The notes under the pieces: model-generated
The model's input: only the letters and a program-made list of their open reading frames with translations
The model's database searches: none
What the model was told of the DNA's origin: nothing
Shown here: piece by piece, positions 7,125 through 12,516 of the stretch
Layout: the number at the start of each line of letters is the position of its first letter
Numbering within the stretch: the first letter of the stretch is position 1
Made by a program: the position numbers and the translations under genes
Source: Oscillospiraceae bacterium
Lineage (GTDB): Bacteria; Bacillota; Clostridia; Oscillospirales; Oscillospiraceae
Direction: 5' to 3'
Assembly: GCA_015068325.1 (NCBI GenBank)
Contig: SVKQ01000009.1
Span: forward strand, 1 to 64,000
DNA length: 64,000 bases

Positions 7125-7160
7125 ATGTGTCGGAAGCTTTCCAATATCCCACCCGTTTGG

Positions 7161-7190
7161 GCCGCTCTGTCTGACAGGGCGGCTCCTTTT
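7161..7190 (+). terminator. Intrinsic terminator upstream of the radical-SAM operon
   Basis: Ten-base arms GCCGCTCTGT (7161-7170) and ACAGGGCGGC (7174-7183), loop CTG, are followed by TCCTTTTT. No plus-strand gene precedes it, so it would end a transcript of about 60 nt or act as an attenuator. Confidence 0.6.
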
Positions 7191-7202: not shown

Positions 7203-7230
7203 TTGTCAATCCCGGCAAATGTGGTATACT
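7203..7230 (+). promoter_or_regulatory. Promoter of the radical-SAM / Cys-tail operon
   Basis: TTGTCA (7203-7208), a 16-bp spacer and TATACT (7225-7230) lie 37 bases before the ATG at 7268. AAGGAGGG precedes that start. Confidence 0.75.
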
Positions 7231-7267: not shown

Positions 7268-8650
7268 ATGAAGAACATGACCCTGCGGGAGCGCCGCTAC
7301 CGGCGTGCCCATCTGAACTGCGTGCGCCACATCACGCTGGACCCCAAGGGGCCGGGTGTGGTGCGCCTGCACATGATCCCACCGGCGTCGGAGGATCCCG
7401 CTGACCCGTTCCTGCTGCTGATCAACGGCGCGCAGCTGGTACCGCTGAACCTGAGCTGGGCCGTGCTGCTGGCCAATTTTATGGACCAGCTGGAGCCCTA
7501 CGCCGGCCGGGAGATCGGCGAGGAGGATTGGACGGCCATGGCGGAGAGGGCGGTATCCGCCACCCGGCGCACCTATCCCGGCACGAAGCGGAAGGTGCTG
7601 ACGGATGATCTGAACCTGATGCTGAACAGTTTGGTGACCATCGCCCGGGGCGGCGAGCCGATCGTGGAGATCAACCCGTTGAGCCTGGGCGAGTACGCCC
7701 CCCATATGACGGCGCCCCACCGCATGGACCTGCTGGTCAGCGCCATGACGAAGGGCGGCGCCTGGCACTGCAACCAGAAGTGCCTGCACTGCTACGCCGC
7801 CGGCCAGCCCATGGGCGAGAGCGCGGAGCTGACCACGGAGCAGTGGAAAGAGGTGCTGGTGCGGCTGCGGCAAGCCAATGTGCCCCAAGTGACCTTCACC
7901 GGCGGCGAGCCCACGCTGCGCGACGACCTGGTGGAGCTGGTGGATGCGGCCCAGTGGTTCGTCACCCGGCTGAACACCAACGGCCTGCTGCTGACGCCGG
8001 AGCTGTGCCGCGGCCTGTATGCCGCCAGCCTGGACAGCGTACAGGTGACGCTCTACTCTGCCGACGCCGCCACCCACAACGCCCTGGTAGGAACTGACGG
8101 CTTCGAGCGCACGGTACAGGGCATCCGCAACGCTGTGGCGGCGGGACTGATGGTGTCTGTCAACACGCCGCTGTGCTCTGTGAACACCGACTACGCCGCC
8201 ACGCTGGCCTTTGCCAGCTCCCTGGGCGTGCGTTACGCCACCTGCTCCGGGCTGATTCCCTCCGGCGCTGCCGAGGGGGAGGCCAGCCGCGCCACGGCGC
8301 TGACGCCGGAGGAGCTGACGGCAGTCCTGCGCAGGGCGGTGTCCACCGCCTTTGAGCTGGAGATGGAGCTGGACTTCACATCCCCCGGCTGGCTGGATGA
8401 GGAGACGCTGCGGGGGCTGGATCTGCACCTGATCCCCAGCTGCGGCGCCTGTCTGAGCAACATGGCCGTGGCGCCGGACGGCGCCGTAGTGCCCTGCCAG
8501 AGCTGGCTGGGCGGCGTCACCCTGGGGAACATCCTCACCGATTCATGGGAGAAGATCTGGAACAGCGAGCGGTGCCGGGCCATCCGGGACGAGAGCGCCA
8601 AGCTGGAGCACATCTGCCAGCTCCGCCGCGGCAACAGGGGAGGATGCTGA
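7268..8650 (+). CDS. Radical SAM/SPASM protein, candidate peptide maturase
   Basis: This 460-aa cytoplasmic Fe-S enzyme has a non-catalytic N-terminal region (1-150) that could recognise a partner. The radical-SAM core follows with CNQKCLHC (Cys168/172/175) and the SAM-binding TGGEP (211-215). A SPASM-type C-terminus has Cys392, 395, 410, 436, 450 and 460, enough to bind auxiliary clusters. Family members modify ribosomal peptides or proteins, for example forming thioether bonds. Its stop is separated by one base from the next gene, whose product ends in a Cys-Ala repeat, so that protein is the obvious candidate substrate. Substrate and chemistry are inferred, not shown. Confidence 0.88.
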   Translation: MKNMTLRERRYRRAHLNCVRHITLDPKGPGVVRLHMIPPASEDPADPFLLLINGAQLVPLNLSWAVLLANFMDQLEPYAGREIGEEDWTAMAERAVSATRRTYPGTKRKVLTDDLNLMLNSLVTIARGGEPIVEINPLSLGEYAPHMTAPHRMDLLVSAMTKGGAWHCNQKCLHCYAAGQPMGESAELTTEQWKEVLVRLRQANVPQVTFTGGEPTLRDDLVELVDAAQWFVTRLNTNGLLLTPELCRGLYAASLDSVQVTLYSADAATHNALVGTDGFERTVQGIRNAVAAGLMVSVNTPLCSVNTDYAATLAFASSLGVRYATCSGLIPSGAAEGEASRATALTPEELTAVLRRAVSTAFELEMELDFTSPGWLDEETLRGLDLHLIPSCGACLSNMAVAPDGAVVPCQSWLGGVTLGNILTDSWEKIWNSERCRAIRDESAKLEHICQLRRGNRGGC

Positions 8651-8651
8651 C

Positions 8652-9770
8652 ATGAAGAAGAGACTGGGAATGATCCTGGCGGGCACACTGCTGAGCCTGC
8701 TGCTCCTGCCCATGACCGCCGTCACCGCCTATGCCAAGGACTATGACGAGGTCGTCAGCTATGACATCACCGTGCAGCCCAATGTGGATGACGGCAGCCT
8801 CAGCTTCCGGGTGGAATTCGACTGGAAGGCGCTGGAGGAGCTGCCCTACGGCCAGGAACTGAAGATCGGTGTGCCCAACGGCTCCATCCGGGACGTGCAG
8901 GCCCTGACCGACAACATCGAAAAGCTGGATTTCGACAACAGCTATATGTATGTCTACTTGACCCGGGCCTACGACACAGGCGAGACCTTCCATTTCGCCT
9001 ACTCCTGGGTGCAGGAGTACATGTACACCTTGGGCGACGATGGTTCTGTCAGTTATGACTATACCCCCGGCTGGTTTGACGAGGCGGTGGTGGACCATAT
9101 GACCGTCACCTGGAACGACCCGGCCGAAGTCGGCGGATCGCTCAGCTATGAGGTACCTGACAGGGACTACTGGAAATCAGATGATAAAACGCTTACCGGT
9201 ACAGCGCTGCCTCACGGCAGCCGCATCCGCGTGATGGTGGAGTACGACCGGTGGCCGGTGGAGCTGTCCTGGGAGAACAGCAGCGAAAACCAGGGTGATT
9301 GGGGCGGCTATGAGCCCGATTATAATTATGACGACGGCTCCGACGGAGAGGCTATCTTCATGCTGGTGGTCATCATCATCGTGGCGGTGGTGCTGATCAT
9401 CGTGTTCTCCGCCCTCCGCGACGGATATTCCGGCGGCTTCGGTACCCACTATGTGTTCTACCACAATCTGTGGTATCCCGCCGGCCCGGACGGAAAACCC
9501 AGACCTGGCAGCGTGGGTACGGCTCACAAGCCAAAACCGCCCGCCTCCTCCCACAGCAGCGGCGGCTTCGGCGGCGGCAAGCGGGGCGGCGGCTTTGGCG
9601 GCGGAGGGTTCGGCGGCAGCAGCCACTGCGCCTGTGCCAGCAGCTGTGCCTGCGCCTGTGCCTGTGCCTGCGCCGGCGGCGGACGGGCCGGCTGCAGCGC
9701 CAAAAATCTCTACGGCGCCATCCACCTGGACGAAGAGATGAGCCGGCGGCTGGAGCGGCCGGAGGAGTAA
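8652..9770 (+). CDS. Signal-anchored membrane protein with Cys-Ala repeat tail
   Basis: This 372-aa protein has a signal peptide (1-28, AYA at the cleavage site). A beta-rich extracellular domain (29-230) somewhat resembles DUF2207-type proteins. One membrane segment (235-254, VVIIIVAVVLIIVF) leads to a cytoplasmic tail. The tail has a Gly/Phe-rich stretch (304-322) and then Cys326, 328, 332, 334, 336, 338, 340 and 348, mostly as Cys-Ala alternation, ending in a charged helix. The predicted topology leaves the Cys-rich part in the cytoplasm, where the coupled radical-SAM enzyme could reach it. Precise function is unknown. Metal binding by the Cys cluster is an alternative. Confidence 0.85.
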   Translation: MKKRLGMILAGTLLSLLLLPMTAVTAYAKDYDEVVSYDITVQPNVDDGSLSFRVEFDWKALEELPYGQELKIGVPNGSIRDVQALTDNIEKLDFDNSYMYVYLTRAYDTGETFHFAYSWVQEYMYTLGDDGSVSYDYTPGWFDEAVVDHMTVTWNDPAEVGGSLSYEVPDRDYWKSDDKTLTGTALPHGSRIRVMVEYDRWPVELSWENSSENQGDWGGYEPDYNYDDGSDGEAIFMLVVIIIVAVVLIIVFSALRDGYSGGFGTHYVFYHNLWYPAGPDGKPRPGSVGTAHKPKPPASSHSSGGFGGGKRGGGFGGGGFGGSSHCACASSCACACACACAGGGRAGCSAKNLYGAIHLDEEMSRRLERPEE

Positions 9771-9783
9771 ACGCAGCAAAAAA

Positions 9784-9815
9784 GGGTTCCTGCCGAGGCA
9801 GGAACCCGCTTTTTT
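9784..9815. terminator. Bidirectional terminator
   Basis: Arms GGGTTCCTGCC (9784-9794) and GGCAGGAACCC (9797-9807, after a short loop) are flanked by A-run and T-run. It serves both the convergent Cys-tail gene and the SDR gene. Confidence 0.88.
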
Positions 9816-11123: not shown

Positions 11124-11417
11124 TCAATCGTTGACATCGTAGAAGATGCGCTCGCCGGTTTCGGCCAGACCCAGCTGCTCACGGGCCAGATCCTTGATGA
11201 AATCTTCGTCGTCGGCATGGGACAGGTCGGACTTGAGACTCTCGTTCTCCTGCCGGCGCTGCTGCACCTGAGCGGCGATGCTGGACTGCTCATTCCTGGC
11301 GCTGCTGAGCTTGCTGGACATCTGGATCAGCTCCACGGCCATGACCGCGATCAGGACGAAAAGCACCAGCATGGGGACGAAGCCGGGGCCGCGGCGTGTC
11401 TTTTTGTTGTTTTTCAC
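11124..11417 (-). CDS. divIC: Septum formation initiator, DivIC/FtsB family
   Basis: This is a 97-aa bitopic membrane protein. A basic cytoplasmic N-end (MKNNKKTRRG) is followed by a membrane helix (about 14-32) and an outside coiled coil (33-70, QQRRQENESLKSDL). The family's short conserved end, REQLGLAETGERIFYDV, closes it. It bridges FtsL and the divisome at the septum. The start is GTG at 11417 with GGGAGG 11 bases upstream. Its first 128 bases overlap the end of the yabQ frame. Confidence 0.92.
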   Translation of the reverse strand: MKNNKKTRRGPGFVPMLVLFVLIAVMAVELIQMSSKLSSARNEQSSIAAQVQQRRQENESLKSDLSHADDEDFIKDLAREQLGLAETGERIFYDVND

Positions 11418-11910
11418 GGTGTATGCGACCTCCCTTTCTGTCGTCGCGCCTATGCACCAGGAGAAACTCCCACTTGTAGTTTCCTATTTTAACGTACTTG
11501 CGGAGAAAATAAAAGACTTTTTTTGCTTTTTGTCCGATTTTTTTTGCAAGAGACAGGAAAACCGCGGCTGGAAGCCGCAAAAGGCGCGCCCAATCCGCGG
11601 CAGTGCCGGCCCAAAAGGCCCACAGAGGCCGCAGCAGCGATGCCGCCAGCAGAAAGTAGAGGGCCGCGCCCAGCGCCATGTGCAGCAGTGCGTACAGGCG
11701 CAGCTCGCCGCCGCCCGGCCGTCGGCCGAAGGCGGCCAGCGCCAGCGCCGCCAGCGCCACATAGACCGTGTCCAGCAGGTGGGTCAGCAGCCGGTCGTCC
11801 CTCCGCCGCAGACGAATGGCGCGCAGCATGTCGTATATCGCGGCTGCGGCCGCACCGCCCAGCAGGGACAAAACCAGCAACTGCAGTTGGGGCAGCACAT
11901 GGTTTTCCAT
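11290..11910 (-). CDS. yabQ: Spore cortex biosynthesis protein YabQ
   Basis: This is a 206-aa polytopic membrane protein. Hydrophobic segments lie at about 7-27, 48-63 and 75-105, then a basic amphipathic stretch. YabQ sits in mother-cell membranes and is needed for spore cortex formation. Identity rests on membrane topology and on position between yabP and divIC. The reading frame stays open for 128 bases into divIC; its last 40-odd residues are basic and low in complexity, so the functional end may be earlier or a frameshift may exist. It starts three bases after yabP. Confidence 0.85.
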   Translation of the reverse strand: MENHVLPQLQLLVLSLLGGAAAAAIYDMLRAIRLRRRDDRLLTHLLDTVYVALAALALAAFGRRPGGGELRLYALLHMALGAALYFLLAASLLRPLWAFWAGTAADWARLLRLPAAVFLSLAKKIGQKAKKVFYFLRKYVKIGNYKWEFLLVHRRDDRKGGRIHREKQQKDTPRPRLRPHAGAFRPDRGHGRGADPDVQQAQQRQE

Positions 11911-11913
11911 GGC

Positions 11914-12198
11914 TCAGCCGAACAGACGCGACAGCAGAGATCCCCGCTGTGCGGCGCTCTCCTCGTACTGAATGGCGTCGATGTGACCGTCCACATGCAG
12001 CTCGCCGCCGTCCAGCGACAACTTGCCGATGTGCAGATTCGACCCGGTGACAATCATGGTGCCCGCGCAGGTGGTCATGACGATATACCCCTCGTCAAAG
12101 CGCACCACGTCCTCCACACCGGACACCGCCAGGCTCTCACGCCCCTCCAGCTGCACCCGGTGGCTCAGCGGAGCCAGGCTGCTGACCTCATATGCCAT
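11914..12198 (-). CDS. yabP: Sporulation protein YabP
   Basis: This 94-aa YabP/YqfC-family protein is rich in beta strands, with the typical HRVQLEGRESLAVSGVEDVVRFDE start and an SLDGGELHVDGHIDAI end. It belongs to the mother-cell programme in Bacillus. Start chosen at MAYEVSSL (12198) with GGGAGGTG eight bases upstream. A sigma-E-like promoter at 12233-12261 lies just ahead. It is followed by yabQ with a three-base gap. Confidence 0.92.
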   Translation of the reverse strand: MAYEVSSLAPLSHRVQLEGRESLAVSGVEDVVRFDEGYIVMTTCAGTMIVTGSNLHIGKLSLDGGELHVDGHIDAIQYEESAAQRGSLLSRLFG

Positions 12199-12232
12199 AG
12201 AAACGCACCTCCCATACAGGTTGATCAATGCC

Positions 12233-12261
12233 ACTGTATGAGAGGCGCGCCGGTTTTATGA
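12233..12261 (-). promoter_or_regulatory. Sigma-E-like sporulation promoter for yabP-yabQ
   Basis: The minus strand carries TCATAAA (12261-12255), a 14-bp spacer and CATACAGT (12240-12233). The -10 matches the Bacillus sigma-E consensus CATACANT exactly and the -35 matches its central ATA. It overlaps the stop codon of rqcP and lies 35 bases before the yabP start. Confidence 0.6.
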
Positions 12262-12516
12262 CAGGCTGTCCCCTTCGGGGACCTCCCGATACATGGCGGC
12301 GGCGTCGGCCTTGCCCACATTGTCCTGCACGGACAGCACCTCCACCGTCAATGTGCGCTGGCCGAAGCGGATGGAGATCCGGTCGCCGACCTTCACGTCG
12401 CAGGAGGCACGCTGCACCCGCCCGTTGACGGAGACGCGCTCGTTGTCGCAGGCTTCGTTGGCCACTGTGCGGCGCTTGATGAGTCGCGAGACCTTCAGGT
12501 ATTTATCCAATCGCAT
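12256..12516 (-). CDS. rqcP: S4-domain RNA-binding protein RqcP (YabO)
   Basis: This 86-aa protein consists almost wholly of an S4 domain, MRLDKYLKVSRLIKRRTVANE, then VSVNGRV and a VGDRISIRF-type strand. RqcP binds the 50S-peptidyl-tRNA complex and helps RqcH add alanine tails during ribosome rescue. Its CGGAGG ribosome site lies directly after the U-tract of the hup terminator, so translation depends on read-through or a start close by. It is followed by yabP, as in Bacillus. Confidence 0.92.
   Translation of the reverse strand: MRLDKYLKVSRLIKRRTVANEACDNERVSVNGRVQRASCDVKVGDRISIRFGQRTLTVEVLSVQDNVGKADAAAMYREVPEGDSLS

Follow-up and report, generated by a model that had tools for sequence, protein, structure and literature searches.

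A radical-SAM enzyme and a membrane protein with a Cys-Ala repeat tail: a candidate maturase and substrate pair found in several bacterial phyla

Introduction

Radical-SAM peptide enzymes are known mostly from small exported peptides. What, then, would such an enzyme do when it is encoded one base upstream of a full-size membrane protein that ends in a Cys-Ala repeat? The question is raised by a locus in an Oscillospiraceae bacterium (GenBank assembly GCA_015068325.1, contig SVKQ01000009.1). The stretch analyzed, called the window below, comprises the first 64,000 nucleotides of this contig. A preliminary description of the locus, made from the sequence, proposed that the tail is cytoplasmic and is the substrate of the enzyme. 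We examined the two gene products, their relatives in other genomes and the known systems that they resemble.

Results

The two-gene unit

The radical-SAM ORF (460 aa) and the membrane-protein ORF (372 aa) lie on the forward strand with a spacing of one base, and their coordinates agree with the preliminary description. The unit and its borders are as follows.

Positions 7159 to 7185, forward strand: terminator-like hairpin upstream, setting the unit apart from the preceding DNA (pattern match)
Positions 7203 to 7230, forward strand: promoter-like site TTGTCA-16-TATACT with extended -10, before the pair (consensus match only)
Positions 7268 to 8650, forward strand: putative radical-SAM maturase, 460 aa, with CX3CX2C and a SPASM/Twitch-like C-terminus (PF04055, PF13186; AlphaFold pLDDT 93.7)
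Positions 8652 to 9770, forward strand: partner membrane protein, 372 aa, presumed substrate (ORF, partner alignment, structure model)
Positions 9784 to 9807, forward strand: terminator-like hairpin at the end of the unit (pattern match)

As pattern matches, the promoter-like site and both hairpins mark out what appears to be a self-contained two-gene unit. The region holds five promoter-like sites (0.5 in shuffles) and six terminator-like sites (1.7 in shuffles).

The radical-SAM enzyme

Two regions flank the catalytic core of the enzyme model.

Positions 7325 to 7645, forward strand: RRE-like (PqqD-like) N-terminal domain, residues about 20 to 126 (strands, then three helices in the model)
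Positions 8441 to 8617, forward strand: auxiliary-cluster region with Cys 392, 395, 410, 436 and 450 (alignment of enzymes)

The enzyme carries C168, C172 and C175, a GGEP motif and six C-terminal Cys (392, 395, 410, 436, 450 and 460), all of which had been noticed before. Ninety-four enzyme sequences were thinned to 75 for alignment; C168, C172 and C175 are present in 75 of 75, and C392, C410 and C450 are likewise invariant. Pfam cut-offs are passed for PF04055 (Radical_SAM, 71.6 bits, cut-off 29.5), PF13186 (SPASM, 46.3 bits, cut-off 21.5) and PF13353 (Fer4_12, a small 4Fe-4S model). The CX2CX5CX3C half of the full seven-Cys SPASM pattern is absent from the window enzyme and present only in distant relatives (e.g., L031). 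Because this half is missing, the C-terminal domain appears closer to a Twitch/SkfB-like half-SPASM than to a full SPASM domain. On this point the preliminary description needs a correction.

Among the best 25 of 66 NCBIfam matches, no cut-off was passed by the window enzyme. The models nearest by score are NirJ2/AhbD, tetrapyrrole enzymes, and even the best score (NirJ2, 107 bits against a cut-off of 500) is far under the cut-off. Two relatives, L004 and L184, reach 45.5 and 62.5 bits with TIGR04340 (ACGX system rSAM, cut-off 400). The best match in a PDB sequence search was SkfB (7e-26); the non-peptide enzymes GDGT-MAS (7e-17), BlsE (7e-15) and MoaA (9e-13) outrank the peptide enzymes CteB and SuiB, and anSME was found at 7e-8. 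The sequence match to SkfB is confined to the core and does not cover the N-domain. Structural alignments of the enzyme model with SkfB and SuiB start at residues 32 and 22, so that by their ranges the N-domain is included; the alignment with CteB covers the core only, and a fold missing from these lists is uninformative. Pfam PqqD does not match the window enzyme and matches a sister-clade enzyme weakly (16.5 bits, cut-off 23.4). The enzyme is predicted to have a RiPP-maturase fold with an RRE-like N-terminus. A role in defence was considered and rejected: the only matches were viperin-like ones to the common core (best 52 bits).

The partner protein

The partner is divided as follows.

Positions 8652 to 8738, forward strand: signal peptide, residues about 1 to 29 (hydrophobic N-terminus; helix 2-22 in the model)
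Positions 8742 to 9266, forward strand: predicted extracellular beta-sandwich, DUF2207-like, residues about 31 to 205 (strands 32-198 in the model)
Positions 9342 to 9419, forward strand: transmembrane (TM) helix, residues 231 to 256 (model and charge bias)
Positions 9627 to 9695, forward strand: Cys-Ala tail, residues 326 to 348, eight Cys (sequence and partner alignment)
Positions 9696 to 9767, forward strand: post-tail segment SAKNLYGA... (partner alignment)

Sequence and model agree on the signal peptide, the beta-rich domain and the single TM helix that had been proposed. The net charge is -7 over the 25 residues before the TM helix and +4 over the 74 residues after it. From the signal peptide and this charge bias we infer a cytoplasmic tail and an outside beta-sandwich, which bears out the side of the membrane given for the tail in the preliminary description.

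The window partner matches no NCBIfam model and exceeds no Pfam cut-off. PF09972 (DUF2207, cut-off 24.4) does not match it, and scores 26.5 bits (over the cut-off) with the relative L018 and 19.1 and 17.9 bits (under it) with the partners in genomes G368 and G104. In Pfam, DUF2207 is listed only as a predicted membrane protein. DUF2207 proteins appear to share with the partner the ectodomain, the TM helix and a Gly-rich cytoplasmic C-terminus, but the two ordinary ones with whole C-termini (L222 and L223, from the pair-bearing genomes G431 and G471) have a Gly-rich tail without the Cys repeat. As far as seen, it is thus the Cys repeat rather than the membrane protein as such that appears to accompany the enzyme.

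The Cys-Ala tail

The eight tail Cys are found at residues 326, 328, 332, 334, 336, 338, 340 and 348 after a Gly-rich stretch, and the translation confirms the Cys-Ala spacing described earlier. The window and four relatives (L002, L093, L128 and L167), whose partners are 55 to 62% identical to the window partner overall, share one and the same 24-residue tail, HCACASSCACACACACAGGGRAGC. The codons behind it differ synonymously, which rules out DNA slippage or chance as the source of the repeat.

For the partner alignment, 110 full-length sequences were reduced to 98 at 80% identity and to 94 after four were removed by hand (L075, one L145 copy and both L119). Mean column identity is 25%; C334-A341, G342, G343, A346-C348 and K351 are invariant, with the conservation of C336, C338, C340, GG and AGC built in, as every aligned partner had to match CxCxCxGGxxAGC. 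The Ala between Cys, the upstream Cys and K351 are free of this entry requirement. The residue between Cys is Ala in 458 of 462 CxC units, at a position left free in the scan, and K351 is found in 94 of 94 partners. The post-tail segment is a possible follower bound by the enzyme; beyond the Lys it is unconserved in one subclade (L019 ends SRKEPNKQ and L099 ends SRKEPKKP).

Distribution of the pair

A partner search in 150 genomes of the same family matched 10: this genome, five with the pair (G125, G101, G104, G127 and G129), one contig-end copy (G142) and three unrelated Gly-rich proteins. The last three (TM proteins in G005, G051 and G070) were not accepted as homologues, since their match is limited to residues 212-325 and they lack a Cys tail. 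In the order, the enzyme occurs in 4 of 295 genomes, this one included. The tail model matched 11 order genomes: those four, G418 (whose contig breaks off immediately before the enzyme) and six judged not to be real tails (G396, G296, G301, G204, G215 and G263; E 2e-4 to 0.008). L025 (from G396) was inspected and lacks a tail of this kind; the remaining five were assessed by their listed hits, all of which lie in frames of 27 to 57 aa, four with an internal stop. In the phylum search (398 genomes, up to four candidates per genome fully scored), the enzyme reached at least 470 bits with the 75-sequence model in 11 genomes, and the partner ectodomain was found in the same 11. Of the ten other than this genome, eight have an intact tail; in L040 a contig end cuts it, and L036 has a masked stretch.

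A scan with the tail pattern CxCxCxGGxxAGC alone over 84,980 species genomes gave at least 119 stretches and at least 105 real tail loci in which a partner with its tail is present, both totals being lower bounds; the 105 include two loci on one contig (L060 and L066) and one species reached twice (L097 = L004). Among the matches listed, this radical-SAM clade is found in the same genome for 101 of the 105 loci. The enzyme lies within the fetched stretch in 85 and, among the matches listed, elsewhere in the genome for 16 of the remaining 20; for L088, L107 and L142 it sits on another contig. Of the four loci without the enzyme, three are cut at contig ends (L082, L121 and L124) and one (L075) is decayed, the partner having lost its N-terminus. 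The homologous pairs looked for at the suggestion of the preliminary description are thus widespread, and among the matches listed we did not see tail homologues to be common without the enzyme, the exceptions being the three contig ends and the one broken gene.

Across the loci examined, the partner model matches 138 tail-pattern ORFs; another 12, which it does not match, are short, out-of-frame-looking or GC-rich frames and were taken as chance. In two loci, L067 and L077, no 40-aa tail ORF among those listed gave a match; the edge of locus L077 truncates a real tail, and the enzyme is present in that genome. Six partner matches lack the tail pattern: three through contig or locus cuts, one through a masked stretch, one through a frameshift (L041) and one through an in-frame stop (L080). 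By record titles, Bacillota with the pair include Lachnospiraceae, Oscillospiraceae, Gemmiger formicilis, Hungatella hathewayi and others; elsewhere it is found in Actinomycetota (Eggerthellaceae, Coriobacteriaceae), Acholeplasmatales/Anaeroplasma, Krumholzibacteriia, Aminicenantes (L065) and Chitinivibrionia (L056).

Gene coupling and neighbours

Among 106 distinct full-length partners, including some from loci reached by way of the enzyme, 99 follow the enzyme gene on its own strand; three have the enzyme downstream, one has it on the opposite strand and three have none in the stretch. The gap from enzyme stop to predicted partner start has a median of -4 bases, with 87 of 99 within 30 and two outliers above 1,500. 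Over 84 pairs, near-duplicates included, identity averages 53% between enzymes. Between partners it averages 34% over the first 230 residues and 95% over the 17-residue tail core, a value that owes something to selection by motif. Enzyme and partner distances correlate at 0.839 over these pairs; gene pairing and correlated distances could also stem from vertical inheritance.

Mixed signalling proteins (histidine kinase, GGDEF) are the commonest neighbour group (20 of 105 loci). In 8 of 105 loci, the stretch fetched holds ABC-transporter-type proteins, 362 to 3576 bases from the pair. Two further groups, seen in 18 and 12 loci, consist of antisense frames that overlap the pair, judging by their position. 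The nearest-neighbour scan covered 141 of 145 proteins (four left out for size, long proteins trimmed at 700 aa); polyprenyl synthetase was the commonest Pfam family, in six, and no peptidase family was among the commonest 25 of 129. Inspection by eye found no peptidase or exporter gene among the window ORFs flanking the pair. A larger gene cluster was rejected, as nothing besides the pair recurs in most loci. With no protease or transporter commonly beside the pair, the earlier view that this is not a secreted peptide gains support.

Sister systems and enzyme tree

Two further tail types were found next to related enzymes. In four genomes (G429, G434, G514 and G548; 267-286 bits), the enzyme directly follows a longer membrane protein that ends SCACACACACASSGGCT (GGGGCT in G434), the pattern being (CA)n-SSGGCT. 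In three others (G431, G517 and G703; 180-190 bits), it follows a protein ending in ACHS units and ACVSGGAR. Profile comparison linked the ectodomain of the first sister type to the window family (99.4%); between the two sister types, it linked a cytoplasmic region (96.1%).

Radical-SAM matches at E 1e-35 or better were found in 127 phylum genomes, 18 tail-linked and 109 other. The neighbourhoods of two of the 109 (L204 and L205) were inspected and look like heme-type operons. A tree of 56 enzymes separated 38 tail-linked ones from 18 others with support of 100/100; it took 56 of 100 sequences, 31 of 75 from the main clade and 18 of the 109 other genomes (L204, L205 and 16 more), and the program gave a long-branch warning. 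Each tail type forms one group: CA (90/86), CASSGG (100/98) and CHSA (100/99).

Comparison with known systems

The preliminary description could not match the architecture to a named system. This is nearly right: no family cut-off is passed, but NCBIfam TIGR04117 (Syntroph_Cxxx, 'Cys-Xaa-Xaa-Xaa repeat radical SAM target protein') is a related concept, a Cys-repeat protein curated as a radical-SAM target. Its repeat has four residues, whereas that of the pair has two and sits on a full-size membrane protein. Its cut-off of 50 bits was reached by no protein scanned in seven genomes (0 of 7), and at E 1 neither the window protein nor its genome matched. Of the (ACHS)n sisters, L201 aligns weakly with the TIGR04117 repeat end (13.3 bits) and L203 does not; in the genome scan these tails reach 14.1 to 15.8 bits, at a loose threshold that 7 of 14 control genomes pass as well.

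SkfB is described as an RRE, a radical-SAM core and a half-SPASM (Twitch) domain (PMC6231123). The window enzyme appears to share these domains, and this sactisynthase, which forms S-to-C-alpha thioethers, is its best PDB match in sequence and fold. With TIGR04403 (cut-off 300) the window enzyme scores 62.2 bits; its presumed substrate is not a small leader-bearing peptide, and export genes are rare near the pair. Where sactipeptides and ranthipeptides have a short precursor with a leader, the candidate is a 372-aa membrane protein; where they have peptidase and exporter genes in the cluster, ABC-type genes occur in 8 of 105 loci among the matches listed. QhpD is described as putting Cys thioethers into a full-size protein, with Cys-Asp and Cys-Glu links in QHNDH (PMC8326336). 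From this description alone, the quinohemoprotein amine dehydrogenase maturase is alike in its full-size protein target. We know of no Cys-Ala repeat or membrane tail in its substrate. To judge by its name, the model TIGR04133 (rSAM_w_lipo) describes a similar case, in which a radical-SAM/SPASM enzyme goes with a surface protein (presumably a lipoprotein); the window enzyme scores 80.6 bits against its cut-off of 425. In literature listings that were partly covered, no paper was found on the pair, on DUF2207 with radical SAM or on CXXX/ACGX repeats with radical SAM; GGGRAGC-type protein motifs were not found among the matches listed, which were apparently DNA strings. Cys-repeat radical-SAM targets and the modification of full-size proteins are known; the comparison suggests that RiPP-like radical-SAM maturation moved to the tail of a membrane protein is new.

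Discussion

Proposed modification of the tail

The near-constant repeat, together with genes that travel together across several phyla, suggests that the enzyme chemically rebuilds the tail and that the pair consists of a dedicated maturase and its substrate. That the cytoplasmic tail is the substrate is very likely. Thioether cross-links are the product we would favour, with some reserve, and the account as a whole, a maturase cross-linking a cytoplasmic Cys-Ala tail, is reasonably probable. The partner would sit in the membrane with the beta-sandwich facing outward and the Gly-rich Cys-Ala tail facing the cytoplasm, and the enzyme would probably be made from the same transcript. The enzyme might dock through its RRE-like N-domain on the tail or on the follower S/T-x-K-D/N-F/L-Y, cleave SAM reductively and proceed along the repeat. 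A hydrogen would be taken from each Ala (at C-alpha as by SkfB, or at C-beta) and the carbon joined to a Cys sulphur, helped by the auxiliary cluster. Each bond would cost 2 Da, and the product would be a stiff knob laced with thioethers, retained on the full-size protein and neither cut nor exported; the few export genes nearby point to a tail that stays permanently on the protein. It may perhaps cap a surface protein of the DUF2207 type, in a structural or a signalling role.

The chemistry of this thioether reading has difficulties of its own: Ala is an unusual acceptor at one-residue spacing, and adjacent Cys-Ala rings would be very small. SPASM/Twitch enzymes also catalyse epimerisation, Cys oxidation, C-C bond formation and small-molecule reactions. 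Further points against our reading are the tetrapyrrole enzymes as nearest NCBIfam models, the non-peptide enzymes that outrank CteB and SuiB in the PDB search, the restriction of the SkfB sequence match to the core and the subclade in which the post-tail segment is unconserved beyond the Lys. The enzyme could epimerise every second residue (Ala or Cys) into an L,D-alternating segment as in proteusins, with no bond formed, which we consider unlikely. It is quite unlikely that the tail is an unmodified metal-thiolate site (zinc, copper or iron-sulphur) and that the enzyme acts elsewhere or matures the bound cofactor. The CxC runs do look like metallothionein motifs, and a zinc-ribbon-like motif is present in 47 of 94 partners (between the TM helix and the tail in those inspected), but metal binding needs neither the near-absolute Ala between Cys nor a tail grammar matched to the enzyme clade, and by predicted fold the enzyme resembles an RRE-type peptide maturase.

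Alteration of the Cys side chains themselves, e.g., oxidation to formylglycine or another aldehyde as by anaerobic sulphatase-maturating enzymes (anSME), is very unlikely. The anSME target motif is of the CxAxR type; such a motif is absent here, and the Arg position varies (of 94 tails, 5 have GGGG and 3 have GGRG). The sequence match to anSME is weak next to that to SkfB (7e-8 versus 7e-26). Moreover, anSME is described as binding two auxiliary clusters (PMC6231123), and the window enzyme is without the second auxiliary-cluster motif. Finally, it is highly improbable that the membrane protein is a mere carrier from which the modified tail is cleaved, to be released or exported like a conventional RiPP: the enzyme does resemble RiPP maturases and ABC-transporter-type proteins lie near the pair in 8 of 105 loci, but among the matches listed the other 97 loci have no such group, no peptidase is among the commonest 25 of 129 neighbour families, and the tail, which should face the cytoplasm, has another C-terminal segment after it, so that two cuts would be needed to release it.

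Meaning of the pair

Read as maturase and substrate, the pair may define a new class of post-translational modification, a proposal that we hold at slightly less than even chance: a repetitive thioether or poly-lanthionine-like ladder, which an RRE-bearing radical-SAM enzyme would build on a DUF2207-type membrane protein of full size, along its cytoplasmic tail. The ladder would occur in several phyla and in three or more tail grammars, one enzyme subclade to each, and would serve the cell itself with no exported peptide. The repeat would offer a simple substrate on which periodic radical chemistry is countable bond by bond, and the pair a handle on the DUF2207 family. It points to a wide use of radical-SAM peptide machinery on a permanent cytoplasmic tail of a surface-facing membrane protein, a use that would span many gut, rumen and environmental bacteria.

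Apparent decay, multiple copies and apparent interruption of the tail genes

Among the 105 loci carrying the Cys-Ala tail, L075 (3631-4446) is the only one that lies within a long contig and whose MAG gave no radical-SAM enzyme. The partner membrane protein of L075 has also lost its signal peptide, so the enzyme and the partner seem to have decayed together.

In a Butyrivibrio MAG (L119, 1629-5851) one radical-SAM gene is surrounded by three Cys-Ala tail genes. Two such genes each are found in L047 and L145, and one of the two tail genes in L047 is on the opposite strand.

Two partner genes appear interrupted. In L041 (5019-5997) the Cys-Ala tail is out of frame with the partner body, a frameshift that is either real or an assembly error; further downstream (116-1969) is a protein, DUF2207-like as judged by eye, with a Gly-rich stretch. 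In an Eggerthellaceae MAG, an in-frame TAG (L080, 6622-6624) separates the partner's TM region from its zinc-ribbon/tail half.

Sister types with other tails

Three related membrane proteins carry ACHS tails:

L201, 2-1144, ACHS-tail membrane protein
L202, 2745-3884, ACHS-tail membrane protein
L203, 2754-3893, ACHS-tail membrane protein

Their C-terminal ends consist of tandem ACHS units followed by ACVSGGAR, and in all three loci the gene directly 3' encodes a radical-SAM enzyme whose N-terminus is PqqD-like. The ACHS repeat shows a weak match to TIGR04117 (Cys-Xaa-Xaa-Xaa repeat radical SAM target protein), at the end of the model.

In L197 (2598-4032) and L198 (2452-3922), two conserved, exported-looking proteins are encoded downstream (3') of the sister-type pair. 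Both may be members of the sister-type unit.

Host lineage

The neighbor genes at 11124-12516 of the window resemble a YabP/YabQ-type sporulation cluster, and therefore the host probably belongs to a spore-forming lineage.
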